Part shown: in pieces, positions 1-36,136 of the stretch | How the letters are laid out: every line of letters begins with the position of its first letter | How positions within the stretch are numbered: the first letter of the stretch is position 1 | Program-made: the position numbers and the translations under genes | Assembly: GCA_005518205.2 (NCBI GenBank) | Contig: RFFC02000014.1 | Span: 66,572-130,571 of the forward strand | DNA from: Hormoscilla sp. GUM202 | Lineage (GTDB): Bacteria > Cyanobacteriota > Cyanobacteriia > Cyanobacteriales > Desertifilaceae | Length of the DNA: 64,000 bases | Reading direction: 5' to 3' | The notes under the pieces: generated by a model | The model's database searches: none | Told to the model about the DNA's origin: nothing | The model's input: the letters and a program-made list of their open reading frames with translations, nothing else

Positions 1-214
1 ATTCGGGTTCGCCCTGCGGTGGTGCCACTGGTGCTTTCGATAAAAAAAGGGCAATCTCTGGACTGACGTATTGAAGCAACTGCCCACGGACTGTAGCTTC
101 GAGTCCTGAGAGTGTTTTCAATTGCTCTGGAACAGTCCCTTGGGCCTCCTCATACAACAAGGCGGCTATTCCCAAAGCATAGGTTTTAATTTGAGCTAAA
201 TTTTCAGGATTCAT
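1..214 (-). pseudogene. ISKra4-family transposase, N-terminal end, runs off the window
   Basis: The minus strand starts with ATG at 214 and reads MNPENLAQIKTYALGIAALL, then continues through LLQYVSPEIALFLSKAPVAP to the window edge. This is the usual N-terminus of ISKra4-family DDE transposases. The rest lies outside the window, so I cannot say whether the copy is complete. The first 50 codons and the 5' flank are identical to the copy at 22119-22366. A 25-base terminal inverted repeat ending GGGATGCACCC follows at 288-312. Confidence 0.8.
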
Positions 215-312
215 AGTTTTAGAGGGAGCGTTTACCGACTGTCTCAGCTTAACACCATCTCGGAACCCGTTCGACTAAGCATTTCTACTCATTGCGAAAC
301 TGGGATGCACCC
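65..312. repeat. 248-bp direct repeat shared with 22119-22366 (ISKra4 end)
   Basis: By eye this stretch matches 22119-22366 base for base over 248 bp, including the ISKra4 start codon region and terminal repeat. Identity ends at the terminal GCACCC, as expected for two copies of one IS in different sites. Confidence 0.85.
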
Positions 313-319
313 CATTTAA

Positions 320-719
320 CGGAACCAGTACCATTGGTCTGGGTCGAGCTGAGAGTCGCCTCTCAACCCTCCCATGTCGCCTCTCAACCCTCCCATTCGG
401 GACCGGACTTACAATTTTCACTGCATCCGGCTACTGGTTGATAAGCCCTTGTCATGGGTAGCCCTAGCAGGATTACTCCTACTTGGCCTTATCTCATGAA
501 ATTTCACCCCTCTTAGGTTGCCAGTTCTCCTACATTTAAATCCTTGCTTCAGGCTCCGGGAACCCTACGCTACGGCAGATGTCGCGCAGCAGTATTAAGG
601 ATTGGTGTTCCCCCCGTACTTGGGGAGGAGGGTTTGGACCTCCATGATACCAAAATTACTGGCTAATGGAACCAGTCAGGTGTTCGCTGGTTCTCAGCTT
701 ATACCTGAACGTCTCGCAC
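320..719 (-). mobile_element. ORF-less group II intron remnant
   Basis: Read on the minus strand, the element begins GTGCGAGACG at 719, matching the 5' GTGCG of the full intron at 41123. It carries the conserved ATTTAAATGTAGG block and ends with a domain V-like hairpin (AGCCGGATGCAGTGAAAATT near 390-430) and a domain VI-like stem. There is no room for a reverse transcriptase. A palindromic repeat (CTCCGGGAACCCTACGCTAC) sits inside, near 552. It is closely related to the remnants at 33.3-34.5 kb and 37.9-38.8 kb, so any splicing or movement would need a protein supplied in trans. Confidence 0.65.
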
Positions 720-730
720 TGAACTATTTC

Positions 731-1046
731 TAACTCAAGTTGCTACCTATAAAAATTTCCACGTCCGAAACAGCCATTTTTGGCAATTGAATCCACCAAA
801 ATGCCATTTTGGGGTAAATTACAAGGCGATATGGGATGATTTTGGTTGATCTTGACCTTGATTTTCTATAGGTAACCTAAGTTGCTACCTACATAACCCC
901 AACACCAAAATTAGCCAAAATTAGCCTTTAGAGCCTTGTGATTTACTCCAAAATGGCATTTTTGTGGATATATTTGCCAAAAATGGCTGTCTGAGAGGTC
1001 GGAATTTTTATAGGTAGCAACTTGAGTTAGGTAGCAACTTAGGTTA
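731..1046. repeat. Large imperfect inverted repeat
   Basis: The left arm starts TAACTCAAGTTGCTACCTAT at 731. The right arm ends ATAGGTAGCAACTTGAGTTA at 1029. The arms match imperfectly for about 100 bp and share the blocks CAGCCATTTTTGGCA and AATGCCATTTTGG. A second, nested pair is AACCTAAGTTGCTACC (874) and GGTAGCAACTTAGGTT (1031). The short open frame across it is a by-product of the repeat. It could be a MITE or a fold-back element. Confidence 0.7.
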
Positions 1047-1097
1047 TTTCTATCCTCCCAGCCATCCACCCAGATGCCATTTTTCATAATTTTTTCT

Positions 1098-1661
1098 TTA
1101 TATTTCAGTTTTTGACGATCGCTCAAGATTTGTGAAGTTTTGTGTTGCCGGTGTCAAGCTAGCCCCCAAAACTTGGCCCACCCAGGCTTCAAAAGCCCGG
1201 AGAGGGGCAGTCCGCGCCACGTCACCGGGGTGAACCATCGGTTCTACCAGAATGGTAAACATGCCCAGGCGATTGCCAGCCAGAACATCAGTAAACAGGC
1301 GATCGCCCACCATTGCTACTTTGTTCACCGGCAGTTCCATAGCCGAGACAGCGCGTCTTAACTTCCGCCGGGACGGTTTACCAGCCCCCATGAGGTAAGG
1401 CAAATTCAGGTCCGTAGCAATTCTCTGAATACGATATCGATTCAGATTATTGCTGACCATCCACAGCGACACTACCTGTTTAATCTGTTCCACCCACTGA
1501 CGTAGTTCTGCCGAAGCCTGAGGTATCTGCAGGGGAACAAGGGTTTCATCCACGTCCAACACCAACCCTTTGAGGTTGTATTTTTGCATAATTTCTGGTG
1601 TCAGATGTATAATTGACCTGCCCAGAACTAGGTCTGGCTGTAAGAGTTGATTCCAGGACAT
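1098..1661 (-). CDS. yqeG: YqeG family HAD IIIA-type phosphatase
   Basis: This is a HAD-superfamily phosphatase of the YqeG type, found in nearly all cyanobacteria; its substrate is unknown. The nucleophile motif is in GLVLDVDETLVPL, and the C-terminal acidic motif is MVGDRLFTDVLAGNRLGMFT. The open frame extends upstream to 1796. I chose the ATG at 1661 because the family normally starts MSWN.LLQPDLVLG, and the 45 upstream residues look unlike coding sequence. It is the last gene of the minus-strand run mltG, DUF3727, ruvX. Confidence 0.88.
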   Translation of the reverse strand: MSWNQLLQPDLVLGRSIIHLTPEIMQKYNLKGLVLDVDETLVPLQIPQASAELRQWVEQIKQVVSLWMVSNNLNRYRIQRIATDLNLPYLMGAGKPSRRKLRRAVSAMELPVNKVAMVGDRLFTDVLAGNRLGMFTILVEPMVHPGDVARTAPLRAFEAWVGQVLGASLTPATQNFTNLERSSKTEI

Positions 1662-1833
1662 GGCAGTCATTGTCTGTTTACGACTGTTGACATGGTAAGC
1701 AGGTAAGCACAAATAAACCAATGATGTCAAAGAAATGTCAAATAGCTGAATCTCTTTCTGGAATGGGCTTTCAGCCAACTTGACAAAACTTGACAATTGA
1801 CTTTAATTATGCACACCTACTTACTGTGAGGCA

Positions 1834-2925
1834 TTAGCGAGAGAATAGTGAGTTCTCTACGGTAGCGATCGCCGCGTTATGTTCTGCCAGGGTGCGGCTG
1901 AAGATATGGGTACCATTATAGCGGGCGACAAAAAACAGATAATCTGTTTCTTCTGGGTATAGAGTCGCCTTTAAGCTAGCCACTCCCGGACTAGCGATCG
2001 GGGTCGGCGGCAAGCCGCGATTGAGATAAGTATTATAAGGGGAAGCGGTGCTTACCTGCTGGTAAGTTAAAGGTCGATCGCGAGTCTGCTTGATGCCCAA
2101 CCCGTATTCTACAGTCGGATCTGCTTCCAGTCTCATGCCCAGCTGCAGTCGCTGGGTAAACACCCCAGCAATTAGAGCGCGTTCCGAACTGACTACGGCT
2201 TCTTTTTCCACAATGCTAGCTAAAGTCACCCACTCGGACAAACTCATAGAAGTATTTTGTTGAGCTTGTTGATAAACTGGCAGTGCCACCCGCTCAAACT
2301 CTCCGATCATCTGTCGGACGACCGAGTCCGGAGTAATGGCATCTTTCGGCATCAGGTAACTGTCGGGATAGAGAAAGCCTTCGGTGTGAGGCAAGTTAGG
2401 GGGAAGCCAAGGATATTCACTGCTCCAGTTCTGACGAGTAGCTGCTACAAAGGCCTCCGCACTGAAAAAGCCCTGGGCTTCAAAGTAGGACGCCATCTGT
2501 TTAATATTCCATCCTTCGGGAATCGTGTACCTCGTCTGGACCACCTTTCCGAGCCAAAGAAGCTCCGCGATTTCTGCCATGGACTGAGTCGGCGACAATT
2601 GGTAGACCCCTGCTTGAAAATCACCCTCATCCGTTTGCAGCCTCAACCAACGGTACCACAGGTCCCAAGCTTTAGCCGAACGTATCAATCCTACCGCCTC
2701 TAAATTTTCGCCAATCTCCTGACTGGTAGTTCCCAGGGGAATTTCCACTTGCACCCCGGCGGCGGCAGTTTCCGACCTCGCAGACGATACTGGAGAGGCC
2801 GCCCAACTCCACCAAGCCCAACCTTGCCAGCCGCAGATTCCCAGTACTACTGGGAACAGTAGCAGATAGAACGACCATTTGGAGATGCGTGAAACAACTT
2901 CCATTTTTATCCTTAATCTTGTCAA
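1834..2925 (-). CDS. mltG: Endolytic transglycosylase MltG
   Basis: MltG cuts nascent glycan strands at the cytoplasmic membrane and so terminates peptidoglycan elongation. The 363 residues fit the family (YceG-like). A membrane anchor is visible at about residues 16-38 (WSFYLLLFPVVLGI). The catalytic-glutamate motif ASIVEKEA lies at 236-243. The family motifs GFLYPDSY and NTYLNRGLPPTPI are also present. The next gene upstream is DUF3727, about 50 bp away, and ruvX follows, a common cyanobacterial order. An alternative start is the ATG eight codons in. Confidence 0.93.
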   Translation of the reverse strand: MTRLRIKMEVVSRISKWSFYLLLFPVVLGICGWQGWAWWSWAASPVSSARSETAAAGVQVEIPLGTTSQEIGENLEAVGLIRSAKAWDLWYRWLRLQTDEGDFQAGVYQLSPTQSMAEIAELLWLGKVVQTRYTIPEGWNIKQMASYFEAQGFFSAEAFVAATRQNWSSEYPWLPPNLPHTEGFLYPDSYLMPKDAITPDSVVRQMIGEFERVALPVYQQAQQNTSMSLSEWVTLASIVEKEAVVSSERALIAGVFTQRLQLGMRLEADPTVEYGLGIKQTRDRPLTYQQVSTASPYNTYLNRGLPPTPIASPGVASLKATLYPEETDYLFFVARYNGTHIFSRTLAEHNAAIATVENSLFSR

Positions 2926-2974
2926 CTATTACAAAGGAGGCACCTGGCCCGCGAATCTTTGCCGATTATAATTG

Positions 2975-3529
2975 CTATTGGGTTCCAGACAGAGCCTTAA
3001 ATAGCTGTTCTTCTATCTTTGGTAGCAGCGGCTCAATGCGGGACAACTCTTCTGGTGATAGCAATTCCGGACCCCCTGCATCATTCATCCTCGCTAGGAG
3101 CAATAGGGGGTCTAGAGGCGCATATACATCGTATTCCTGTTGTTCATAACAGAAGCTAGCCAAGTGCATAAGTTCTTCGGACTCTGGGTCTAGTTCCTCT
3201 TCCACCCGGCTCAACTCAGGCAGTTCACCTGCAACGGTCAACATCACAGCTGTCCGCTGGAGGGTGAGGTTTTTCTCTGCCAGGACGGCTTTAGCCAGGT
3301 CAAACATTTCGGAGGCAATTTCCACCGACGAGTCTACGGGTATCGGTTCGTCAGCATCTTCATCTAATGGCCAAACGAAAATCTCCACAGGTGAGTCAAC
3401 GGGTAGGAGTACAACGTATTGAGTGTCATTTGCCTCCAAGGAATACTCCAGGTAACAGGTGAGCTTTCGTCCTGCTACATCTGTCTTAGTAACCGTTGGA
3501 GTCTCTATATCGATGTTTTCTTCGTCCAT
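2975..3529 (-). CDS. DUF3727 domain-containing protein
   Basis: A 184-residue acidic protein conserved in cyanobacteria, commonly lying between ruvX and mltG as it does here. The N-terminal half resembles DUF1292-like beta modules (LTCYLEYSLEANDTQYVVLLP). The C-terminal half ends in a conserved helix-rich tail (LSPEELSRIEPLLPKIEEQL). No signal peptide or membrane segment is visible, so it is probably soluble. Its function is unknown. It starts 19 bp after the ruvX stop, suggesting a shared transcript. Confidence 0.85.
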   Translation of the reverse strand: MDEENIDIETPTVTKTDVAGRKLTCYLEYSLEANDTQYVVLLPVDSPVEIFVWPLDEDADEPIPVDSSVEIASEMFDLAKAVLAEKNLTLQRTAVMLTVAGELPELSRVEEELDPESEELMHLASFCYEQQEYDVYAPLDPLLLLARMNDAGGPELLSPEELSRIEPLLPKIEEQLFKALSGTQ

Positions 3530-3547
3530 CCAGTTAACTCTCCTTAT

Positions 3548-4042
3548 TCACACTTGGCTTAATTTCAAATTCCCTTGCTTTCGCCCGGCAGCGTAGCGTG
3601 TAGCGTGTGAGTCCAACCATTGCTGCAAAATCAGGCAAGCTGCCTTGCGATCGATTAATTCCTTGTGGCGAGAGGGGGAAAGCTTTTGGTCAATTAATAG
3701 CTGTTCTGCTTCCACGGAAGTCAGTCGTTCGTCAACATATTCTACTGGCAACTGCAGGGCCGCGCCCAGGGATCGGGCTTCTTTTTGCACAAGTCTGGCT
3801 TGATAACCCAAGCTGCCTTTCATAGTATAGGGTAAACCGATTACTAGAACTTGAACTTGGCGTTCTACGACTAGTTCTCGCAGGGATGCCACTACTTGCG
3901 TTCGGGCCGCAGACGGCCCGAAAAATCTGGAAGTGCGTGAGATAGTTGTCAGTCCAGTGGCTATCAATCCCGTGCCATCACAACCAGCTACTCCAATTCG
4001 CTTTTTGCCGATATCTAAACCCAATGCTGAAATTATCACCAT
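3548..4042 (-). CDS. ruvX: Holliday junction resolvase RuvX / YqgF nuclease
   Basis: A 164-residue RNase H-fold nuclease of the YqgF/RuvX family, linked to Holliday junction resolution and rRNA processing. Family motifs: LGLDIGKKRIGVAG (first Asp), VEYVDERLTSVEA, and DRKAACLILQQWL near the end. A short in-frame palindromic repeat (plus-strand GGGCCGCAGACGGCCCGAAA at 3905-3924) has added the residues FFGPSAAR after TTISRTSR. The 5' end lies inside a tandem duplication, and a second, dead 5' copy sits immediately upstream. Confidence 0.92.
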   Translation of the reverse strand: MVIISALGLDIGKKRIGVAGCDGTGLIATGLTTISRTSRFFGPSAARTQVVASLRELVVERQVQVLVIGLPYTMKGSLGYQARLVQKEARSLGAALQLPVEYVDERLTSVEAEQLLIDQKLSPSRHKELIDRKAACLILQQWLDSHATRYAAGRKQGNLKLSQV

Positions 4043-4463
4043 AGTTTTCCGTCCAAGCTATTGCTGTTCCTCTGGTAACTGAGGGAAATCGGAGTACCCA
4101 TAAAAGCCATTATTAGTTGCTTCCTCCTTAAATAAATACCGATTACTAGAACTTGAACTTGGCGTTCTACGACTAGTTCTCGCAGGGAGGCCACTACTTG
4201 CGATTGCGCAGCGTGCGCGCAGCGCGTTCGGGCCGCAGACGGCCCGAAAAATCTGGAAGTGCGTGAGATAGTTGTCAGTCCAGTGGCTATCAATCCCGTG
4301 CCATCACAACCAGCTACTCCAATTCGCTTTTTGCCGATATCTAAACCCAATGCTGAAATTATCACCATAGTTTTCCGTCCAAGCTATTGCTGTTCCTCTG
4401 GTAACTGAGGGAAATCGGAGTATCCATAAAAGCCATTATTAGTTGCTTCCTCCTTAAATAAAT
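3837..4463. repeat. Tandem duplication of the ruvX/GNAT junction
   Basis: Copy A spans 3837-4137 and copy B 4139-4463. Both run from CCGATTACTAGAACTTG to CCTTAAATAAAT. They differ by only two point changes seen by eye and one 24-bp block, present only in copy B at 4203-4226. The near identity means the duplication is recent. Confidence 0.9.
4036..4368 (-). pseudogene. Duplicated 5' fragment of ruvX
   Basis: The first 76 or so codons repeat the intact ruvX start (MVIISALGLDIGKKRIG) and then run into a duplicated 3' end of the GNAT gene in a wrong frame. The nuclease is truncated after VQVLVIG, so no activity is expected. Compared with the intact copy it carries an extra 24 bases (4203-4226) that add eight residues, RCAHAAQS. 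It is the by-product of the tandem duplication. Confidence 0.85.
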
Positions 4464-5583
4464 CTGGATCTGCATCAGCTGACAGCTGGCGAACAGAAGA
4501 CCAGGATCGCTGGCCTAGTGGGACCGGTTTAGCTGGCTGGAGTCCTTGGATTAGCTGGAGATTTTCTAATGATACGGCTAGCTTGGACTCTCGGAGTTTG
4601 TGCCAGACTGAACGAGACATTAGCAGGGTGTGTTTTATCCGACTAGCACCCAGCCTTTCGAGATACTCTTCCCGTTCTGGCTGATAGTCAACAGATGTTA
4701 GCTGCAAGGATTGGTTTGGGAAATCCTGGGTAATGCGTGCCATCTGGGACATGAGTTCTGGGTACAGCCAAGTGTAGGCTGGGTGTACGGTCAGGTCGGC
4801 GACGTGAGGGCACTGGCCATCTGCGGCGACGCGCAGCTGAAAATAGCCGATCGCCGCTTGGCGCTGGGTTTCAAATACATAACCGCTGACTACTTCAGTA
4901 TGACCGATCCACTGCTGCAATGCTTGTATGAAAGAGGTTAAGAGGCTAGTCTTGAAGTCATCGATGTGGCGATCGAATACTTGACGCACTAGGGGCGGCA
5001 TGGCCACGGTATCCAGCTGGTAAAGGGGCTGGGCATCTGCGTTACTGACTGGTAGTAGATTGGGCAAAGCTGGTTCCCGAGAGGCTAATGCAGCTAGTAT
5101 TGCTGGTGGCAGTTCCCAGTAGGTCATCTGTGCCAGGGGTTGAAAGCCATTTTGCCGATAGAGGGCGATCGCATCTGTATGAGTTACATCTACTTCCAGC
5201 AACCAGGTGCGTGCTTCTCTGACTGCTTGCAAGCAGTGACGCAGGAGTTGAGAACCGATGACATACCTGGAAGCTGCGGCGTCTACCACCACCTGTTCCA
5301 CCCGCCATGTACTGCGCGTGCGGTTAAATGGGGAGATTTGAATCATGCCCAGGACTTGGTTATCCTGCTGTGCCACGTAAGCGCAAAATAGGTACTGCCA
5401 GGGGTTGGGAAACAGGCTCAATATTTTTAACAGACCGTACCAACGTCCCATCTGTCGGATTAAGGTATCGTTGCGGTCACTAGCAACTGTAGGCGCTGCT
5501 AACAGCTGCGCGATCGCCTCTAGGTCACGGTGAGTCAAGTTGCGGATTGTTGCTGTGGTATTTTCCGGGAAGAAAGGAGTCAT
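4384..5583 (-). CDS. GNAT family N-acetyltransferase (399 aa)
   Basis: A long cyanobacterial GNAT protein. The N-terminal 150 residues form the recognisable acetyltransferase domain: RDLEAIAQLLAAP near the start, VEQVVVDAAASRYVIGSQLL as the acetyl-CoA-binding strand and loop, and ALYRQNGFQPL near its end. The C-terminal half (VFETQRQAAIGYFQLRVAAD onward) looks like a second, degenerate GNAT-like fold. The substrate is unknown. It lies between ruvX and the F420-ligase-like gene on the same strand. Its last 80 bases are duplicated at 4043-4137. Confidence 0.85.
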   Translation of the reverse strand: MTPFFPENTTATIRNLTHRDLEAIAQLLAAPTVASDRNDTLIRQMGRWYGLLKILSLFPNPWQYLFCAYVAQQDNQVLGMIQISPFNRTRSTWRVEQVVVDAAASRYVIGSQLLRHCLQAVREARTWLLEVDVTHTDAIALYRQNGFQPLAQMTYWELPPAILAALASREPALPNLLPVSNADAQPLYQLDTVAMPPLVRQVFDRHIDDFKTSLLTSFIQALQQWIGHTEVVSGYVFETQRQAAIGYFQLRVAADGQCPHVADLTVHPAYTWLYPELMSQMARITQDFPNQSLQLTSVDYQPEREEYLERLGASRIKHTLLMSRSVWHKLRESKLAVSLENLQLIQGLQPAKPVPLGQRSWSSVRQLSADADPDLFKEEATNNGFYGYSDFPQLPEEQQ

Positions 5584-5630
5584 CTTGGGTGGGGCATCTG
5601 TTGGAGTTTCTCTTGTAACCAGCCGAATAG

Positions 5631-6791
5631 CTAGCTATTCGCCGCAATCAGGACTACCGGCGTCTGCTCGTCAGCATTCCCAGCTGGATTGCCGATCAAA
5701 GCTTGCTCTAATAAGGAGGTGTCTAGTCCGGGGGTTGCTGCCAATATCTTAACTGCTTTTAAGTCGTTCACGTCTACGATCGCCGCTGACAATCCTGTCT
5801 CTTGTTTGATTTGGGCCACTACCTGTTGGGGATTTTCCGGCCCCAGGACGATAAACTGGTCGTAGGGGGGCAGGGTGCCCGTTACGTCATCGATCAGTCT
5901 GGCTTGCTCTCCCGCTAGCTGGTAGAATACTCCTGGCTTGCGCAATACTGCTTTGGCGATCGCCCCAATGAGAAAGGCCAGCACTACCCGCACTGGTCCC
6001 ACTAGATCCACTAAGGTTTGCATGCCGCCAGCGGTTGCCAAGCTGGAGGTGGGCATAAAGTAATAGCATATCCGTTTTGCTGCCCATCCGGGCTTTACCG
6101 TACTGGGATGACGATATCTGCCCTGCATCAGGGCTACCGGGGTTTCCCCGATCGCTACTATATCCCCTGCTTTGGCGTGAGGCAGAACATAACTCTTTAC
6201 CACATCTACTGGATTATCCAGTTCCGTGAGCAGGTGAGTCCGGATCGGCAATACTTCTGCCCCCTTGACTTTTATTTTTTTGGGTGCTATACTCCTATCT
6301 GGATATTGCAAGGGATGAATTATATGGCGGACCTTGTCAATTCTGCCTTCCGGGCCATAGGTGATATAGTGAATCTTAATCCAGGCTGTTTGCAGGTGAC
6401 TGAGATTGTCCCCTGCGATCTCCACTGAGACTTGAATTTTGGTTTTCTTGCCAACCTTGACGATGTACGCATCCCAGTAACCGTCCTCTCTAGCAGGGAC
6501 ATCGGAGTGCATGGAAATCACCTTCGAGTTGCAACTGACGCTTTCTAGAGAGGATGCCGACAACAGCTTTATTTCTGCCCAGACTTCTGGCAACATGATC
6601 TCTAGCGCCTCGGTCCGGTTGATGAATTCTAGCTCCCCTGTCAGCTGATAGTGCTGCGGTGACGGCATGTCTAGTTTCCAGTTTCCCGCAGTCAACTCCA
6701 GGTTATTTCCCGGGCGACGCCGATACTGTAATTCTAGCCCTAGGGCGATTAACAGCGCCGCTACTCCTACGATAATAATTTCTACGTTCAC
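5631..6791 (-). CDS. F420-0:gamma-glutamyl ligase-like membrane protein
   Basis: A 386-residue protein with an N-terminal membrane anchor (EIIIVGVAALLIALGLELQY). A beta-rich region follows, then a C-terminal part resembling CofE-type F420-0:gamma-glutamyl ligases (HAKAGDIVAIGETPVALMQG; YDQFIVLGPENPQQVV). Cyanobacteria of this kind are not expected to use F420 in the classical way, so the true substrate is uncertain. It is the first gene of the minus-strand run ending in yqeG; the GNAT gene starts 47 bp downstream. Confidence 0.75.
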   Translation of the reverse strand: MNVEIIIVGVAALLIALGLELQYRRRPGNNLELTAGNWKLDMPSPQHYQLTGELEFINRTEALEIMLPEVWAEIKLLSASSLESVSCNSKVISMHSDVPAREDGYWDAYIVKVGKKTKIQVSVEIAGDNLSHLQTAWIKIHYITYGPEGRIDKVRHIIHPLQYPDRSIAPKKIKVKGAEVLPIRTHLLTELDNPVDVVKSYVLPHAKAGDIVAIGETPVALMQGRYRHPSTVKPGWAAKRICYYFMPTSSLATAGGMQTLVDLVGPVRVVLAFLIGAIAKAVLRKPGVFYQLAGEQARLIDDVTGTLPPYDQFIVLGPENPQQVVAQIKQETGLSAAIVDVNDLKAVKILAATPGLDTSLLEQALIGNPAGNADEQTPVVLIAANS

Positions 6792-7338
6792 TATATATCT
6801 GACTAATTATGATGAAATTCTCCTGTATTGTGCCATGCTCTCCACCTCATCCGATATATCATATTAAACATAACTTAACAAAAGCCGCCCGAACCCGTTC
6901 CCAGGCGGAGCGGTGGGAACGAGGGGTCCGGCTACTAGAACTTAGCCCACGCTCCTATCGTTTCCAGAGACTTTCGTTTCCCGAGACACTCACCCATGTC
7001 GGAGCGCTCGTAGTGGGCTGACTCTTCGCTATAGTCTAGTATCTCTTTAAACTTCCGCGATTGCTCGTGGAAACGACCCACCCATGTCGTTCGCCGCAGG
7101 CAACGACATGGGTGGGTGGATCGGTAAACGAAAGGGTGCTCCTGGACGCGACCCCCTCCTCGCAGCGGAAGGGGCCCTCCGCGTGCAGGGGCTAGATTGC
7201 ATGCATTATCGTTGCACCCTTTTCCATTTGCAAATCCACGTGCAAAAGTGAGATGCTCCCGATCTAGCCTGGCCTTAGCCAGACTTGCCTGGGTGAATTG
7301 CTAATTTTGAATTGCTAATTGCACGAACAATTAACAAT
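6792..7338. other. Intergenic region rich in palindromic repeats
   Basis: I see no gene here. A CGTTCCCAGGCGGAGCGGTG palindrome lies near 6897-6925. A perfect 16-bp stem, ACCCACCCATGTCGTT at 7076-7091 and its complement at 7102-7117 around a 10-base loop, is the best-formed member of a family repeated at 34, 46 and 58 kb. The end near 7300 holds TTGAATTGCTAATTG repeats. Confidence 0.7.
7076..7117. repeat. Palindrome of the ACCCACCCATGTCGTT family
   Basis: Perfect inverted repeat with 16-bp arms and a 10-base loop. Related palindromes lie at 34067-34110, 46168-46211, 58741-58782 and 58796-58838, several flanked by CGTTTCCAGAGAC or its complement. Confidence 0.85.
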
Positions 7339-8163
7339 TCAATCGACTCGTTCTAGTTGCCAGAGGATTTGATAGCCTTCCCGTCGGACTCGGGAGACTA
7401 CCCAGTTACGCCACACCCAGCGATCGCCCCGACTGGTGACTGCACTGGCGTTGATATCCATGAAGTCGGCGAGTTCGGAACTGGCGATCAGGTAGCCTTT
7501 GCTGGCTATTTCATCGGCTATTTGCAAGGTTTCTATCAGGTTGCGTAGTTGGGCGACTCTGATTTCGCGGGGCAGGCTATCCGCTGCGGGTTCTTCAGGC
7601 ATGGGCGAGTCTTTCATGGTACGATCGAGGGGAACTTGACTGGATTCTAGTTTTGGATTGTTGCTCTCTTCTAAGGCTAAGGGGTTGGCTGCTGCTTGCT
7701 GTAGTGAGGGCTGTTGGCCACTGGCAAAGGCCCGGGCGATCGCGTCGCAGCGTTCGTTGCCTGGGTTGCCGCTGTGGCCTTTGACGTGTTTCCACTTTAC
7801 CTGCTGGCTGTTGAGCTTCGCGAGCATTTCCCAGAGGTCCTGATTTAGTACCGGTTTCCCTTGGGATGTCCTCCAGCCGTTTCTTTTCCAACTGGCTATC
7901 CAACTGGTTATCCCTTTTCTGACATATTCGCTATCGGTGTAGAGGGTGACTGGTTCCGTTTGCCCCGTGCTGGTTACCAGTCTTAAGGCCGCGATCGCAG
8001 CTTGCAGTTCCATCCGGTTGTTGGTGGTTTGCTCTTGGGCACCCCCCATTTCATGGATAGAATCATCGTTGAAGTTTACTAGGACGCCCCAGCCCCCTGG
8101 TCCTGGGTTGCCGATGCAGGCTCCATCTGTGTACAGGCTTTTGATTGTGCGTTCGTCTGACAT
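7339..8163 (-). CDS. rnhA: Ribonuclease HI with C-terminal extension
   Basis: RNase HI cleaves the RNA of RNA-DNA hybrids. The catalytic acids are visible at D13 (LYTDGACIGNPGPGGWG), E52 (NNRMELQAAI), D77 (LYTDSEY) and D140 (RCDAIARAFA), with the substrate loop KHVKGHSGNPGN. The enzyme domain ends near residue 150. A further 120 residues follow, with a linker and a conserved tail (SELADFMDINASAVTSRGDR) seen in cyanobacterial homologues. It is preceded by a repeat-rich gap and appears to be transcribed alone. Confidence 0.92.
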   Translation of the reverse strand: MSDERTIKSLYTDGACIGNPGPGGWGVLVNFNDDSIHEMGGAQEQTTNNRMELQAAIAALRLVTSTGQTEPVTLYTDSEYVRKGITSWIASWKRNGWRTSQGKPVLNQDLWEMLAKLNSQQVKWKHVKGHSGNPGNERCDAIARAFASGQQPSLQQAAANPLALEESNNPKLESSQVPLDRTMKDSPMPEEPAADSLPREIRVAQLRNLIETLQIADEIASKGYLIASSELADFMDINASAVTSRGDRWVWRNWVVSRVRREGYQILWQLERVD

Positions 8164-8344
8164 TAGCAGGTGGGGGGTATAGGGTCTCTTTCTTTACGGC
8201 CCGCCTCTGGTTCAAACCAGAGCGTTACCAGGCGGTCCCTAGGTAACGAGGCTAAAGTCGGTTAAAACCGGTTAAAACCGACTAATAACATAATGCTTAT
8301 AATTTTAGCATTTTTTGACACAATGGTATTGGCCCTACAGTGTA

Positions 8345-8371
8345 GGTAGGGTTTCCGAACGAAACCCTACC
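8345..8371. repeat. Perfect 11-bp palindrome abutting the TPR gene stop
   Basis: GGTAGGGTTTC, a 5-base loop and GAAACCCTACC. It begins at the stop codon of the TPR gene at 8372, whose last repeat is cut off here. It may act as a transcription terminator stem, but no clear T-tract follows. Confidence 0.7.
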
Positions 8372-9130
8372 CTACCATGCCACACCCCGGTTGTACCAGG
8401 CTGAGTGGTAGTCAGGTTTAATCTCAAGGGCGCGGTCATATGATGCGATCGCCTCTTCATACCGTTCTAAGTTCCACAGCCTCACACCCCGGTTGTACCA
8501 GACTTCGTGGTAGTCAGGTTTAATCTCCAGGGCGCGGTCATAAGATGCGATCGCCTCTTCATAGCGTTCTAAGTTCCCCAGCGCCACACCCCGGTTGTAC
8601 CAGACTTTGTGGTCGTCTGGTTTAATCTCAAGGGCGCGGTCAAAAGATGCGATCGCCTCTTCATACCGTTCTAAGTTCCTCAGCGCCACACCCCGGTTGT
8701 ACCAGGCTGAGTGTAAGTCAGGTTTAATCTCAAGGGCGCGGTCAAAAGATGCGATCGCCTCTTCATAGCGTTCTAACTTCCCCAGCACCACACCCCGGTT
8801 GTACCAAGCTGAGTGTAAGTCAGGTTTAATCTCAAGGGCGCGGTCAAAAGATGCGATCGCCTCTTCATACCGTTCTAAGTTCCCCAGCGCCATACCCCGG
8901 TTGTACCAGGCTGAGTGTAAGTCAGGTTTAATCTCAAGGGCGCGGTCATATGATGCGATCGCCATGAAGAGGAGTTCTAAGTTCTCCAGCGCCATACCTC
9001 GCACGAACCAGACTTCGTGGTAGTCAGGTTTAATCTCCAGGGCGCGGTCATAAGATGCGAGCGCATCTAGGAAATACCCTTCCAGATCTAGCTCAAAACC
9101 CCGACGGAACCATTCATCAGCTTCCTGCAT
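8372..9130 (-). CDS. Tetratricopeptide repeat protein with near-identical repeats
   Basis: About seven 34-residue TPRs of the form AWYNRGVALGNLERYEEAIA follow one another. At DNA level they repeat every 102 bp with few differences, so they were amplified recently. I chose the ATG at 9130 (MQEADEWFRRGFELD), which begins at the end of an upstream frame. The frame also opens at 9181, but those codons look non-coding. The last repeat stops after RGVAW at the palindrome at 8345-8371, suggesting 3' truncation. The function is probably protein-protein interaction; partners are unknown. Confidence 0.8.
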   Translation of the reverse strand: MQEADEWFRRGFELDLEGYFLDALASYDRALEIKPDYHEVWFVRGMALENLELLFMAIASYDRALEIKPDLHSAWYNRGMALGNLERYEEAIASFDRALEIKPDLHSAWYNRGVVLGKLERYEEAIASFDRALEIKPDLHSAWYNRGVALRNLERYEEAIASFDRALEIKPDDHKVWYNRGVALGNLERYEEAIASYDRALEIKPDYHEVWYNRGVRLWNLERYEEAIASYDRALEIKPDYHSAWYNRGVAW

Positions 9131-9270
9131 TATATCATCTCCTCCGAAACAGACAACCCATCTCCGACAGACTCCTGCCAAAAGCGCTTTAACATCAGTC
9201 GCACCTCCCCTTCAGTCTTCTGTTTAACAGTATAGCTTGCATCTTGCACATTCTCAATTAGCCTCCTGGC
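9130..9270 (-). pseudogene. C-terminal remnant of a small conserved protein
   Basis: The minus strand reads RLIENVQDASYTVKQKTEGE then LMLKRFWQESVGDGLSVSEE, ending in a TAA that overlaps the TPR start. A related tail (PPEPEYTGNEIIEAEFLGDG) ends at 9607. Both look like 3' remnants of small hypothetical genes without clear starts. I do not recognise the family. Confidence 0.4.
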
Positions 9271-10120
9271 CCGCCGTGGGTTAAAACCCACGGCTAATAG
9301 CTTAAGTCGGTTAAAACCGACTGGAAACATTGTATACAAAGTGTTTAGTCCGTTTTACCCTCGTTCCCTGGCTCCGCCGGGGAACGAGCGACCCGAGGCA
9401 GAGCCTCTAGTTAAAAATGGTGCAAGATCTGAGTTAAAACCGACTGAAAACATTGTATACAAAGTGTTTAGTCCACTTTAGTGGACTTTAGCTATTAGCC
9501 GGGGGTTTGCAACCCCCGGCGGTCTATCGCTCAAGATGCAAGATGTGAGTTTGCAACCCCCGGCGGTCTATCGCTCAAGATGCAAGATGTGAGTACCCCG
9601 ACAGTTGCTAACTTCCTGACGTTTCGGGAACGGATATCCCATCTCCGAGAAACTCTGCTTCGATGATTTCATTACCAGTATATTCTGGTTCCGGGGGAAA
9701 ATGTGCGAGGATCTCCGAGGCAATTTTCCCGGCCACATCGGATATTTCCCCACAGGAAAGATCGCCAAGCTAGCGCATCCCCAGTGCTAACTCTTGATGC
9801 TGGGTGGGTGAGGCGAGCAATGTTTCTCCAAAGGGATGCAACCAGGCTGATAATTCCCCTTGTGTAGTCTTCTCTCCGATGAAGAAGCCCAAAACATTGC
9901 CCCGACTCGGGTGTGGTCAAAAACAGTTGGTACGGGGAGATTCTCGCTGGGTGCAGGGCGAAGCATCTATCAAGTTATGTCATAAGTTTACAGATAGACT
10001 CTTCGCCCTTGCGAAAGTGGGATGCACCCTCTTTACTGATAACTTTCTTCTCTATTGTAGTTCGTAGTGAGTGCTTTAGCGCTCGCGTTGAGGACTTTAG
10101 TCCTCACTACAAACTGCTGT
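9271..10120. other. Repeat-filled intergenic region
   Basis: No complete gene is seen. The region holds two copies of a block around ACATTGTATACAAAGTGTTT (near 9327 and 9450), a tandem pair of a 43-bp unit starting TTTGCAACCCCCGGCGGTCT (9505-9590), an ISKra4-like terminal repeat (GCGAAAGTGGGATGCACCC, about 10011-10029) and the palindrome pair GTAGTGAG...CTCACTAC near 10065-10110. A remnant coding tail (about 9607-9760, minus) may belong to a lost small gene. Confidence 0.6.
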
Positions 10121-10933
10121 CTAGGGCTTGGGAATTAATTGGATTTCAAATAATGTCGGCCACAGCTTTCCTGTTACGAAGATGCGATCGCCTTTCTCAT
10201 CATAAGCGATCCCATTCAGCACCGCATTTGGATCCCGGCGCAGTGCGATATCGAGCAACCCAGTCAAGTCTATCCAGCTCAAAACTTGACCCGTCTGGGG
10301 GGAAATGCGAGCGATAAAATCGGTCCCCCAGACATTAGCCCATATTTCCCCTTTAACGTACTCTAACTCATTGAGTCGGAAGACGGGGTTATCTCCGTCC
10401 CGCACTTGCAGCTTCTCGATCTCCTGGAAGCTATCGGGGTTCCAAAAGTACAGAATATTTGTCCCATCGCTCATAATTAGGCGCTTGCCATCGTGAGTAA
10501 TTCCCCAACCTTCTGTAGGATATTTAAACTCGTTGATTTTCTCAAATGTATCGCGATCGTATACAAAACCGGTATTAGACTTCCAAGTCAATTGAATAAT
10601 GCGGTCTTGCCAGAGAACGATCCCCTCTCCAAAGTAGCGCTTATCCAGGTTAGAGATTTGCAAAACCTTGCCAGTTTTCAGATCGACTCGGCGTATAGAA
10701 GATCTGCCCCACCAACCAGTGCCCTCGTAAAGTTGGCCATTGTGGTAGAACAAACCTTGTGTGAAAGCCTCAGTATCGTGGGGGTAACGGTTAATAATGC
10801 GGTAGCTGTACATGGGAGCCTGGGTTGGTTGTAAGTTTTCTGCTTTGGTATGATGTTCTGATTCAAATATACCGCAGGCGCTGGCGACTAATACAATTAC
10901 TGCCAGAGAAGCAGAAATCAATCTTTGGTGCAT
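10121..10933 (-). CDS. Glutaminyl-peptide cyclotransferase (plant-type), lipoprotein
   Basis: A 270-residue enzyme of the plant/bacterial glutaminyl cyclase family, which converts N-terminal Gln of peptides to pyroglutamate. It has a lipoprotein signal (LAVIVLVASAC, lipobox Cys20), so it should be exported and membrane-tethered. The beta-propeller family motifs RYPHDTEAFTQGL, YEGTGWWGRSSIRRVDL, GEGIVLWQDRI, NELEYVKGEIWANVW and LNGIAYDEKGDRIFVTGK are all in order. The length is normal. It appears monocistronic. Confidence 0.9.
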   Translation of the reverse strand: MHQRLISASLAVIVLVASACGIFESEHHTKAENLQPTQAPMYSYRIINRYPHDTEAFTQGLFYHNGQLYEGTGWWGRSSIRRVDLKTGKVLQISNLDKRYFGEGIVLWQDRIIQLTWKSNTGFVYDRDTFEKINEFKYPTEGWGITHDGKRLIMSDGTNILYFWNPDSFQEIEKLQVRDGDNPVFRLNELEYVKGEIWANVWGTDFIARISPQTGQVLSWIDLTGLLDIALRRDPNAVLNGIAYDEKGDRIFVTGKLWPTLFEIQLIPKP

Positions 10934-10987
10934 GATTTTGGTGGGTTGGTTAATTGCTAATTGCTGACTATTTTCAAGTTCAAATCA

Positions 10988-11392
10988 TCACTCTGGTTCA
11001 ACCCAGTCCACTTCCAAGCGGCGGAAGTCCCGGTCAAAAGATACCACATATCCGCCTCGCCGACGCGCCGTTTCTGCCAGAAATGCGTCTAAAAAGTCTA
11101 GATTTGCGATCGCCATTCTGTCCAATGCAGCTATAACTATATCCGCTTCTTCTAGGACTACCCCTTGTCTCGTTACCAAGGGCAGCAAAAGTTCAGCGAT
11201 TTGAGTGCGGGGGTATTGGTAGAAAGAACGCAGCACCCAAATAACCTCTGCTACCACCATCGGCAAAAGCCGGAGCGTTACTTCGCCTCGATCTGCTCGC
11301 TCAACTAGCCTTAACGAGCGTTGAAATAGCTCAGGAGGTTCCGTTGTTATCAAGCGGATCGAGACGTTTGCATCCAACCACATATCATTCAT
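10988..11392 (-). CDS. PIN-domain toxin (VapC-like)
   Basis: A 134-residue PIN-domain protein, the ribonuclease toxin half of a type II toxin-antitoxin pair. Acidic residues expected for the metal site are D7 (MWLDANV), E49 (MVVAEVIWVL), D102 (FLDAFLA) and D120 (VVSFDRDF). The start codon overlaps the stop of the AbrB-type antitoxin (ATGA-type overlap near 11389), the usual antitoxin-first arrangement. A second copy of this start, cut after about ten codons, is seen at 11770-11804. Target RNA is unknown. Confidence 0.87.
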   Translation of the reverse strand: MNDMWLDANVSIRLITTEPPELFQRSLRLVERADRGEVTLRLLPMVVAEVIWVLRSFYQYPRTQIAELLLPLVTRQGVVLEEADIVIAALDRMAIANLDFLDAFLAETARRRGGYVVSFDRDFRRLEVDWVEPE

Positions 11393-11649
11393 AATCCCTC
11401 ACTTAAGATTTTTTTAGCAAGAGCTTCACCAACTTCCTGACGGACAGCGTCCTTACCTGGGTAAGGACGGGTAGCTGGCAAAGCACCTGCAAATTCCCTC
11501 AGTCGCCTGGGTTTAAGCACTCTGAGCCGTATTAGTTTCTCACTTTCTACAAAAAACATCAATTCATCTCCTTCCTCTAGCCCCAGTTTACTGCGAAGTT
11601 CTTCAGGAATTGTCACTTGTCCGTCACTGGTTATTTTTGCTATGTGCAT
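11389..11649 (-). CDS. AbrB/MazE-type antitoxin
   Basis: A SpoVT-AbrB DNA-binding protein of 86 residues starting MHIAKITSDGQVTIPEELRS, the swapped-hairpin DNA-binding motif. The C-terminal region (ATRPYPGKDAVRQEVGEALA) should bind the PIN toxin. I chose the ATG at 11649 because it has a good ribosome binding site (GAGGAG) and matches family starts. The frame opens further upstream at 11697. It should neutralise the toxin at 10988 and repress its own operon. Confidence 0.88.
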   Translation of the reverse strand: MHIAKITSDGQVTIPEELRSKLGLEEGDELMFFVESEKLIRLRVLKPRRLREFAGALPATRPYPGKDAVRQEVGEALAKKILSEGL

Positions 11650-11801
11650 TTTATTTCTCCTCTTGCTTATTGCTCTCCGGGGCACGGCCAAGTACAATAC
11701 TGCTCGTCTATCCCGATAATCAACTGATGCCGTGCCCCTACCATTAATTGCTTATTGCTTATCGCTATTATACATCTGATATCGCCACAATAACATATCG
11801 T

Positions 11802-12076
11802 TCATAATCCCTCACTTAATATCTTTTTAGCTAGAGCTTTACCCACTTCCTGACGGACAGCTTCTTTGCCTGGGTAAGGACGGGTAGCTGGCAAAGCACC
11901 TGCAAGTTCGCTGAGACTGCGACGCTTGAACATCTGTACTTTCCATCCATCCAGGAATAACACCAGTTCATCTCCTTCTTCTAGCCCCAGCTTGCTGCGA
12001 AGTTCTATGGCTGGCGCCACGCTGCGCGATCGGGAATTGTCACTTGTCCGTCACTGGTCATTTTGGCTATATGCAT
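11802..12076 (-). pseudogene. Second AbrB-type antitoxin, broken by a 23-bp repeat
   Basis: A duplicate of the antitoxin at 11389. It starts MHIAKMTSDGQVTIP at 12076, then a 23-bp palindromic repeat (12011-12033) interrupts the frame and brings a stop. Removing exactly those 23 bases gives TIPIELRSKLGLEEGDEL and an open frame to 11802. A shorter product from an ATG at 12020, created by the repeat, would lack most of the DNA-binding motif. Its toxin partner is deleted after about ten codons. Confidence 0.85.
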
Positions 12077-15216: not shown

Positions 15217-16131
15217 CTAAAATTCTCCCAAACCTGCGATTTCTGGATGGAAGAAGAAGGCCAGGCCCAAAACTACATAGGTAGCCAATAGCAGAGAACC
15301 TTCCAACCAATCAGAACGACCATCGGAACTGACAGAATTAGCAAGTAACACCGCTACTACCACCGCCACCAGTTCAAAGGGATTGAAATTGAGGTCCATC
15401 GGTTGACCCATTATCAAGCCAGCTAGCACTAATACCGGTGCCACAAATAGAGCAATTTGCAAGCTAGAACCCACCGCCACCGAGACAGATAGATCCATTT
15501 TATTTTTCATAGCTACCGTTACAGCTGTAGCATGTTCCGCCGCATTGCCAATAATGGGAACCACAATCACCCCGGTAAACAATGCCGTTAATCCCAAATA
15601 AGAGGTCGCTTCTTCTAGGGAGTCAACCAACAGTTCCGACTCTACCGCTACCACTATGGTTGATACTAATAGTACGATTACCCACAACAGTAGGTTCGGT
15701 TTCTCTTCTGATTCTTCCGCTTCGAGATCGGCCATGCCCACATCATAGAGAAAGGAGTGGGTTTTCATCGAGAACAGCAGTGTCAGCAAGTAAACCACGA
15801 TTAACACGATCGCTACCGCCCCAGAAAGAGTCTGCATGGTAGCTTCTGAGATGCCGTCGGAAGTGACATCCACAGCAGTCGGCACCAAGATAGCAATCAC
15901 CGCCAAATTCATCGCCGAAGCATTTAATCGCGCCACCACTGACTGAAATTGCTGTTCTCTGTAGCGGAGGCCACCCAAAAACATGGCAAAACCCATCACT
16001 AACAGCAGGTTACTGATAATCGAACCCGTGATACTGGCCTTGACCACATTAATCAGTCCCGCATTCAGGGCCACCAGACCGATAATCAATTCTGTGGCAT
16101 TGCCGAAAGTAGCATTCAAAAGGCGTTGCAC
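15217..16131 (-). pseudogene. Calcium/proton antiporter, C-terminal 5/6 (split by IS1)
   Basis: The CaCA/CAX antiporter body: the first repeat motif LLNATFGNATELIIGLVALN and the second GNAAEHATAVTVAMKNKMDL are both present, with about ten hydrophobic segments. These transporters exchange cytosolic Ca2+ for H+. The first 66 codons lie beyond the IS1 at 16122-16993. Removing the IS and one 9-bp target copy gives a 364-residue protein reading GPNLGGFLNATFGNATEL. A GTG at the IS edge could start a truncated product lacking the first helix. Confidence 0.9.
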
Positions 16132-16993
16132 ATTTACGGGATGATAGGTTAATGCATATTATTATAATCTGCAATCTTTCAGGGAGAATTTATAGTTAAG
16201 ATGAGGGATTTTTACCCATTAGTCAAAATTAGTGCTATAATGGAGTGTAAGGCGAATAATTTAGTTAAAGGAGTTGAAAATGAAATGTCCCCGATGTGGT
16301 TCTGAAAAAATTAATAAAAATGGTCACAGACGAGGTAAACAGAATTTGATTTGTAAAGATTGTAACCGTCAGTTTCTCGAACATTATTATCCGCGCGGTT
16401 ATTCGGAAGATGTCAAGAAAAACTGTTTAACGATGTACGTTAATGGTAATGGATTTCGAGGGATTGAAAGAATTACTGGCGTCAGCCATAATACTCAAAT
16501 TCAATGGGTAAAACAAGCAGCTAAAGAATTACCGTCAATCCCTGAAAACTATGAGATACCGGAGGTTGCAGAGATTGACGAGTTGCATACTTATGTAAAT
16601 GAAAAAAAGAAGAAAAAGTGGCTATGTCCAGTTGTAAATCATTTTAAGCCAGGGATTATAACATGGGTATTAGGAGATCGTTCAGCTGAAACTTTTAAGC
16701 CATTGTGGGACATTATAAAATGTTGGCAATGCTTTTTTTACGTCACTGATGGATGGCCTGTATATCCAATGTTTATTGAAGATATTGACCATATAGTTAG
16801 CAAAACATACATGACCCGTGTTGAAGGAGAAAATTGTCGATTAAGACATTATCTAGCTCGATTAAAAAGTCAAACATTATGTTACTCAAAATCATCAGAA
16901 ATGTTGAGGCTTTCAATTAAGCTATTATTGCACTATCTACGTTATGATTTTGTACCTGTCCCTAGTTAAATCATCCCGTAAATGTGCAACGCC
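16122..16993 (+). mobile_element. IS1-family insertion sequence
   Basis: 872 bp, bounded by terminal inverted repeats GGCGTTGCACATTTACGGGA and the complement ending TGTGCAACGCC. It is flanked by a perfect 9-bp target duplication, CATTCAAAA, at 16113-16121 and 16994-17002. It interrupts the CaCA antiporter gene. Confidence 0.96.
16274..16969 (+). CDS. IS1-family transposase
   Basis: A 231-residue transposase in one frame, so no programmed frameshift is needed, unlike classical IS1. The N-terminal zinc ribbon CPRCGSEKINKNGHRRGKQN...CKDC is followed by an HTH (RGIERITGVSHNTQIQWVKQ). Then come the DDE catalytic parts: AEIDELHTYV, YVTDGWPVYP and the C-terminal VEGENCRLRHYLARL. A good ribosome site (AAAGGAG) precedes the ATG. 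It looks intact and could be active. Confidence 0.93.
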   Translation: MKMKCPRCGSEKINKNGHRRGKQNLICKDCNRQFLEHYYPRGYSEDVKKNCLTMYVNGNGFRGIERITGVSHNTQIQWVKQAAKELPSIPENYEIPEVAEIDELHTYVNEKKKKKWLCPVVNHFKPGIITWVLGDRSAETFKPLWDIIKCWQCFFYVTDGWPVYPMFIEDIDHIVSKTYMTRVEGENCRLRHYLARLKSQTLCYSKSSEMLRLSIKLLLHYLRYDFVPVPS

Positions 16994-20381: not shown

Positions 20382-21044
20382 ATGTTGAAAGCATCTGATA
20401 TTATGACTGAGGACGCAATCACGATTCGCGGTTCAGCGACGGTGGCTTCCTCTGTCAAGATCGTGAAGTTGAATAACTTGCGATCGCTGATTGTTGATGT
20501 CCGCAGTTCTGAAGATGCCTACGGGTTCGTCACCCAAACTGATATTGTTTATAAAGTGGTAGCCTATGGTAAAGACCCGGAAAAAATGCGAGTCTACGAA
20601 ATCATGACCAAGCCCTGCATAGTGGTCAATCCCGATCTGGGAGTAGAGTACGTGGCGCGGTTGTTTGCCAATACAGGTATCCGGGTAGCGCCGATCGTCA
20701 AGGATGAACTGGTGGGGATCGTTTCCGTTACTGATATTCTCAATAAGGGGGACTTCGTAGAAAAACCCAAAGTCAACATTCTCCAGCGAGAACTGGATAT
20801 AGCCATCTCAGAAGCTAAATCTATTTGTGCGGCCAAAGGTGTTAGATCTCAAGAATGTATTGACGCTTGGGAATTGGTTGAGGATATCGAAGCTGACGCC
20901 AATTATCAATCTGAAACTTATCCCACGGTCCGCGGACGGCCCGAAAAATCGGAAATCAAACCTTTGGAAACAACAGAATTAGAGCTCTTCTGCTGGGAAC
21001 ATCCAGATCTGCAAGAAGTCCTCCAAAATCCGGCGAAAATATAA
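20382..21044 (+). CDS. CBS-domain protein with C-terminal CP12 domain
   Basis: 220 residues. Two CBS motifs form a Bateman module: MTEDAITIRGSATVASSVKI to FVTQTDIVYKVV, and MTKPCIVVNPDLGVEYVARL to GIVSVTDIL. This usually binds adenine nucleotides. A CP12-like region follows (LDIAISEAKSICAAKGVRSQ, then ECIDAWELVEDIEADA). In classical CP12 this region, with Cys pairs, holds GAPDH and phosphoribulokinase together and inhibits the Calvin cycle. Here the N-terminal pair is present, but only one Cys (ELFCWEHP) is seen in the tail. A palindromic repeat adds residues near VRGRPEKS. I chose the ATG at 20382; a TTG at 20346 is possible. Confidence 0.88.
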   Translation: MLKASDIMTEDAITIRGSATVASSVKIVKLNNLRSLIVDVRSSEDAYGFVTQTDIVYKVVAYGKDPEKMRVYEIMTKPCIVVNPDLGVEYVARLFANTGIRVAPIVKDELVGIVSVTDILNKGDFVEKPKVNILQRELDIAISEAKSICAAKGVRSQECIDAWELVEDIEADANYQSETYPTVRGRPEKSEIKPLETTELELFCWEHPDLQEVLQNPAKI

Positions 21045-35081: not shown

Positions 35082-35128
35082 CCGCTCGCGCAGCGTGGCG
35101 CCAGCCATATCCCTCACGGGAGCGCCAG
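35082..35128. repeat. Two tandem ATGG-targeted small repeats inside the GHSH motif
   Basis: Units at 35082-35104 (23 bp) and 35105-35128 (24 bp). Removing all 47 bases rejoins TATGG and TCACTCCC to encode YGHSHLW. Confidence 0.9.
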
Positions 35129-35907: not shown

Positions 35908-35953
35908 CCGCTCGCGCAGCGTGGCGCCAGCCATTCGCGCAGCGTGGCGCCAG
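35908..35953. repeat. Two tandem 23-bp ATGG-targeted small repeats
   Basis: Units at 35908-35930 and 35931-35953. Removing the 46 bases rejoins AACAATGG and ACACCAGG, which gives the continuous reading INNGHQVLTPMQS. Confidence 0.9.
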
Positions 35954-36136
35954 CCATTGTTAATCAGCAAAACCGATAGTAACAGCAAGATGATGCTGGC
36001 TAGGAGAAGAGTGCCGTTGTTGAACTACGCGAGCATAGCTAATCTGCGGTCCAGATGCGATCGCACTATAGCAGATCGCCAAAAAAGTCCGCTAACCTAG
36101 CGGTCAGCGGACTCTATAACCGGTTCTATATGACCA

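Follow-up and report, generated by a model that had tools for sequence, protein, structure and literature searches.

The DNA analyzed here comes from the sponge-dwelling cyanobacterium Hormoscilla sp. GUM202, whose 6.87-Mb draft genome is in 70 contigs. The window, meaning the whole stretch of 64,000 bp that was analyzed, is contig C14:66572-130571 of this genome. Its nearest relatives in the comparison were Hormoscilla SP12CHS1 and GM7CHS1pb. Near the start of the window lies ruvX, the 5' half of which is present in two tandem copies, A and B. The features used below are as follows, with F1, F2 and ATGG denoting families of small elements.

3548..4042, minus strand: complete ruvX, the 5' half of which lies in copy A; 164 aa; Pfam PF03652, E=2.3e-37; PDB relatives 1vhx and 7ess
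3836-4137: duplication copy A (by alignment), 302 bp; comprises the 5' half of ruvX, its start region and ~80 bp from the end of the GNAT gene, without the 24-bp block
3903..3926, minus strand: F2 hairpin element kept in copy A, within full-length ruvX; 24 bp, 8 codons
4036..4368, minus strand: truncated ruvX fragment, an ORF in copy B; 110 aa, departing from the ruvX sequence at the junction
4138-4463: duplication copy B (by alignment), 326 bp; transcriptionally upstream of copy A, 24-bp block kept
4203..4226, plus strand: F1 element in copy B (ATTGCGCAGCGTGCGCGCAGCGCG), which is the block; 24 bp, from a genome family of 81 copies at ≤3 mismatches to the consensus
4229..4252, minus strand: F2 hairpin element in copy B, adjoining F1; 24 bp, absent from ruvX of GM7CHS1pb
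4384..5583, minus strand: GNAT acetyltransferase gene upstream of ruvX; Pfam PF00583, E=2.9e-14; its 3' end occurs again in copy A
7620..7632, minus strand: site in rnhA without the F2 element found there in GM7CHS1pb and SP12CHS1
12007..12029, minus strand: ATGG-family element, 23 bp, absent from both relatives
20926..20947, minus strand: further F2 element

The complete gene belongs to the YqgF family (pre-16S rRNA nuclease or putative Holliday junction resolvase), as seen from Pfam PF03652 and its PDB relatives. It encodes a full-length RuvX domain, covering 3-134 of the 134 profile positions, and its product was aligned to 1vhx over residues 5-145. Transcription on the minus strand runs from the GNAT gene through copy B and copy A to the remainder of ruvX. 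Copy B consists of the first half of ruvX and the end of the upstream GNAT gene. No full-length RuvX domain was found in the copy B fragment, where the Pfam match covers only profile positions 3-59 of 134 (E=4e-10). This fragment is presumably a pseudogene.

An alignment of the two copies showed no differences beyond two substitutions and a 24-bp gap. This confirmed the observation in the preliminary description of the locus, which had reported two point differences and a 24-bp block at 4203-4226 that adds eight codons in frame to copy B. The gap has four equal-scoring placements, 4203-4226 among them, since GCG is repeated at both ends of the block. The junction between the copies (4137/4138) is a clean join with no microhomology and no N. 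An exact 44-bp tandem duplication was also seen at 9504-9594 of the window, in a stretch of which ~50 bp is missing in GM7CHS1pb. Small tandem duplications seem to be frequent in the GUM202 genome.

Two 24-bp insertions in ruvX

The ruvX gene was compared across 109 loci, with a few genomes counted twice. The stretch of the protein that reads GLTTI..R.S....LRE is 19 residues long in 103 of these loci, while it is 27 residues in copy A and 35 in SP12CHS1; copy B has the extra eight codons too. The 16 extra residues in SP12CHS1 correspond to two neighboring 24-bp insertions, F2 and F1. The F2 element reads ATTTTTCGGGCCGTCTGCGGCCCG on the gene strand and is present in both copy A and copy B. Judged from the orthologues, the block is a later addition to ruvX, as it is absent from GM7CHS1pb and almost all the others; an ancestral 24 bp was rejected given the short form in 103 of 109 loci. 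In alignments with 1vhx and 7ess, relatives of solved structure, the gaps fall in the same stretch, which therefore looks tolerant of length change.

The ruvX elements are not typical of their families. In the F1 copy at 4203-4226, two paired stem bases are swapped compared to the consensus (T and G for C and A), as if the inner part had been inverted between the ends. The F2 elements in ruvX are of a less common form that pairs perfectly. At the 3' end of ruvX, a 14-bp insertion (GTAGCGTGTAGCGT, window 3593-3606) was seen relative to GM7CHS1pb, and SP12CHS1 has a 145-bp insert nearby.

Families of small elements and their mobility

The preliminary description had proposed a genome-wide search for the block and its relatives. 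With up to 3 mismatches, the block had 48 matches in the whole GUM202 genome, compared to 0 for a reversed control pattern. The exact sequence ATTGCGCAGCGTGCGCGCAGCGCG occurs once in this genome, as the copy B block. Counted at ≤3 mismatches to the family consensus, ATCGCGTAGCGTGCGCGCAGCGCA, F1 has 81 copies in GUM202, 67 and 75 in the two relatives, and 0-8 copies in 36 other cyanobacterial genomes (reversed control pattern, 0). About half of the 81 GUM202 copies are exact. F2 (ATTTTTCGGGCCGTCCGCGGACCG) has 75, 34 and 194 copies in GUM202, GM7CHS1pb and SP12CHS1, respectively, and 0 in the 36 others, so that it is restricted to Hormoscilla among the 39 genomes. At C7:90018-90113 of GUM202, four exact F1 units lie in tandem, preceded by half an F2 hairpin; they form a nested or expanded array. 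Two mirror forms of F2, GGG..GGA and GGA..GGG, exist across the three Hormoscilla genomes, each keeping one purine-purine mismatch in the stem.

The third family, ATGG (TCGCGCAGCGTGGCGCCAGCCAT), is 22-23 bp long in GUM202. The preliminary description had called the block unlike this family, a claim that no longer holds. An F1 sequence with C at the variable T/C position aligned to an ATGG element with a score of 16, compared to a maximum of 9 in 5000 shuffles, and an intermediate form, ATCGCGTAGCGTGCGCGCAGCCAT, is found at C13:115101 of GUM202. The two families have in common the 5' half and an AGC..CAT end, but ATGG has a different 3' half and a different predicted fold. Its empty sites read (C/T)GA^A, in contrast to CG^ATCG for F1 and F2. 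Two 23-bp ATGG elements lie head to tail at 35912-35957 of the window, with more copies at 35086, 37282 and 37344. An Rfam scan of window positions 1-12000 gave no match.

Mobility was read from a comparison with SP12CHS1 over 184 kb of aligned sequence at 94% identity. Indel sizes peak at 24 bp, with 9 events compared to 1-5 for each other size between 19 and 28 bp. F1 or F2 accounts for seven of the nine 24-bp indels, and three ATGG elements are among the indels of 22 and 23 bp. Filled and empty orthologous sites were seen for all three families and in both directions. For example, an F1 site at locus L007 (TGCCCG^ATCGTCTG) is empty in SP12CHS1, and an F2 site at locus L262 (CTCCG^TGGG) is empty in GUM202. 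From these sites and the 24-bp peak, F1 and F2 are read as recently mobile. The suggestion that more than one family of small elements may be active was thus borne out, with F1, F2 and ATGG all varying in presence between relatives.

F1 and F2 elements lie in genes more often (22 of 26) than ATGG elements do (17 of 30; Fisher p=0.04, with long ORFs standing in for genes). A 24-bp unit is eight codons and keeps the frame, so F1 and F2 can be tolerated in genes, whereas ATGG elements break the frame because of their length of 22-23 bp. The difference fits genes tolerating 24-bp elements but, with ORFs as the proxy, is only suggestive. The 24-bp elements are also a source of small protein insertions, as in ruvX here and in rnhA of the relatives.

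Target site and hairpin

In a 1.26-Mb sample, the HIP1 octamer (GCGATCGC) occurs 980 times, far more often than any other palindromic octamer. The commonest flank obtained by joining the two sides of an element is CCG^ATCGC, found in 13 of 59 cases for F1 and 16 of 102 for F2, which puts the insertion point after nucleotide 3 of a HIP1-like octamer. The 3' flank is ATCG in 30 of 59 F1 cases and 48 of 102 F2 cases. The flanks are mostly variants of HIP1, with the strict form, GCG^ATCGC, in the minority (6 of 102 for F2), and copies outside HIP1-like sites also exist.

Although F1 and F2 are unlike in sequence, they fold alike, as ((((.(((....))).)))): 4 bp, a 1x1 mismatch, 3 bp and a 4-base loop. 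Over 16 F1 and F2 variants, 96% of the cells are paired and 5 of the 7 pairs have changed on both sides. In control alignments slid out of register, 23-48% of the cells are paired and 0-1 pairs have changed on both sides. This count is biased toward the hairpin, since the variants were cut and aligned on it by hand, and we give moderate weight to the compensatory changes as support for a common hairpin. Compared to shuffled sequences, the fold energies of F1 and F2 are not unusual for most strands.

Small dispersed repeats (SDR) of Nostoc punctiforme and relatives reportedly form a hairpin with compensatory changes; a hairpin common to families is also what F1 and F2 have. F1 and F2 are probably new members of this class. 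Like SDR, they are very short dispersed cyanobacterial repeats with recent mobility, and they fit the size and dispersal of SDR (~20-27 bp, many copies), with 24 bp and 81 and 75 copies in GUM202. The closest is SDR5, which is likened to them by behavior and not by sequence. According to PMC4390886, which cites Elhai et al. 2008, SDR5 inserts between nucleotides 3 and 4 of HIP1 (GCG^ATCGC), a position that agrees with the commonest joined flank of F1 and F2. Since most flanks are not strict HIP1 sites, the agreement is one of position and does not prove identity. Unlike SDR5, F1 and F2 have many copies in sites that are merely HIP1-like, F2 is found only in Hormoscilla among the 39 genomes, and the ruvX case has an in-frame gain and a later exact loss that are ordered by a duplicated copy.

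Rickettsia palindromic elements are repeats of around 100 bp or longer that are inserted in frame in protein-coding genes. F1 and F2 resemble them in being in-frame repeats within such genes but are much shorter; this comparison is by description, not by sequence.

Order of events at ruvX

SP12CHS1 has a single-copy ruvX with both F1 and F2, and its block is identical in place and sequence to that of copy B. In GM7CHS1pb, ruvX has neither element. Since a single-copy ruvX already carries the block, the block is older than the duplication, and F1 was lost exactly from copy A. The preliminary description was right that a very small element moved after the duplication, and the direction can now be given as loss from copy A. 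It had also used the block to date the duplication, while the block only orders the loss after it. As for the possibility raised there that the 24 bp was an ancestral part of ruvX deleted here, the deletion and the earlier presence of the block were upheld, but not the ancestry, with 103 of 109 loci short. Overall, the earlier reading was partly supported.

The two substitutions were polarized against SP12CHS1. One site is derived in copy A and the other in copy B, so that both have changed independently. The base beside the block gives CGAACGC in copy B and at the healed site of copy A, compared to CGATCGC in SP12CHS1, which places this change before the duplication. Comparison showed the order of events, the families to which the elements belong, their preferred target and how they vary among relatives; gain and loss were deduced from three draft genomes, which are not related in the same way throughout the window.

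We consider it highly probable that F2 and F1 were gained in ruvX, that the 5' half of the gene was then duplicated and that F1 was finally lost exactly from copy A, with SDR-type spread and slippage as the likely processes. The two elements would have inserted next to each other in a single stretch of RuvX that tolerates length change, adding eight codons each. After the tandem duplication, the copy in the whole gene, A, would have lost F1 while the half-copy, B, kept it. The elements may be non-autonomous SDR-type repeats that insert at HIP1-like CG^ATCG sites and are spread by some mover, possibly through an RNA or a single-stranded hairpin intermediate. The most likely route of loss is slippage, in which the hairpin would be deleted between short flanking repeats, GCG in ruvX and CGAT in rnhA. 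The absence of F2 from rnhA of GUM202 is likely a second exact loss.

Another possible explanation, which we find rather doubtful, is that 24-bp elements are inserted at CG^ATCG and precisely excised by a dedicated machinery, which may be linked to the methylation or cutting of HIP1. If so, genes would gain and lose eight-codon cassettes reversibly, and copies A and B of ruvX would document one complete natural cycle of insertion and excision.

The tandem duplication could instead be an assembly artefact that joined two strain variants from a metagenome, with and without the block. This is a draft genome of 70 contigs with 2.7% estimated contamination, and the GUM202_hs assembly is a hybrid that was finished with GapFiller (PMC6520454). 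However, the junction is clean, without N or microhomology, and the window holds other tandem duplications, so we regard an artefact as unlikely. An artefact would still leave the 24-bp difference standing as a true loss, present in some strains and not in others.

Cyanobacteria are often polyploid, and the duplication could have formed by unequal exchange within a cell whose chromosome copies were already with and without the block, which would put the loss before the duplication. We judge this quite improbable. Copies A and B have the CGAACGC substitution in common, in contrast to CGATCGC in SP12CHS1, so two such alleles would have separated only recently, and a loss from an F1-bearing ancestor would still be needed.

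REPs and REPINs, which are tagged with GTAG or CGTC (PMC3733652, PMC3116915), are likewise short dispersed hairpin repeats, some within genes, and F1 and F2 could be repeats of this kind mobilized by a RAYT transposase. F1 does contain GTAG, and GUM202 has four matches to Y1-type transposase genes. However, the GTAG lies within the F1 stem and not at the end of the hairpin, and the F2 end has neither GTAG nor CGTC; a terminal tag beside the stem-loop was found in neither F1 nor F2. None of the four Y1 genes is near a listed GUM202 copy of F1 or F2, so no RAYT gene flanked by cognate repeats was found among them. F1 and F2 also differ from REPs in being 24-bp units at HIP1-like sites. A REP/RAYT origin is thus very unlikely and was rejected.

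Insertion into copy B after the duplication, with SP12CHS1 independently receiving the same element at the same site, was rejected as extremely improbable: the element families do vary between genomes, but the atypical ATTGCGCAGCGTGCGCGCAGCGCG would have had to insert twice at an identical base, each time beside the same F2 copy.

Target choice and loss are directly testable, since the three genomes provide filled and empty sites, lineage-specific amplification, a common hairpin and a common target. Larger differences between these genomes were seen as well. A ~870-bp stretch at window 16122-16993 is missing at the same place in GM7CHS1pb and SP12CHS1, where the flanks are contiguous. About 25-30 copies of it, at ~89% identity, are found elsewhere in GM7CHS1pb, and it is likely an insertion sequence.
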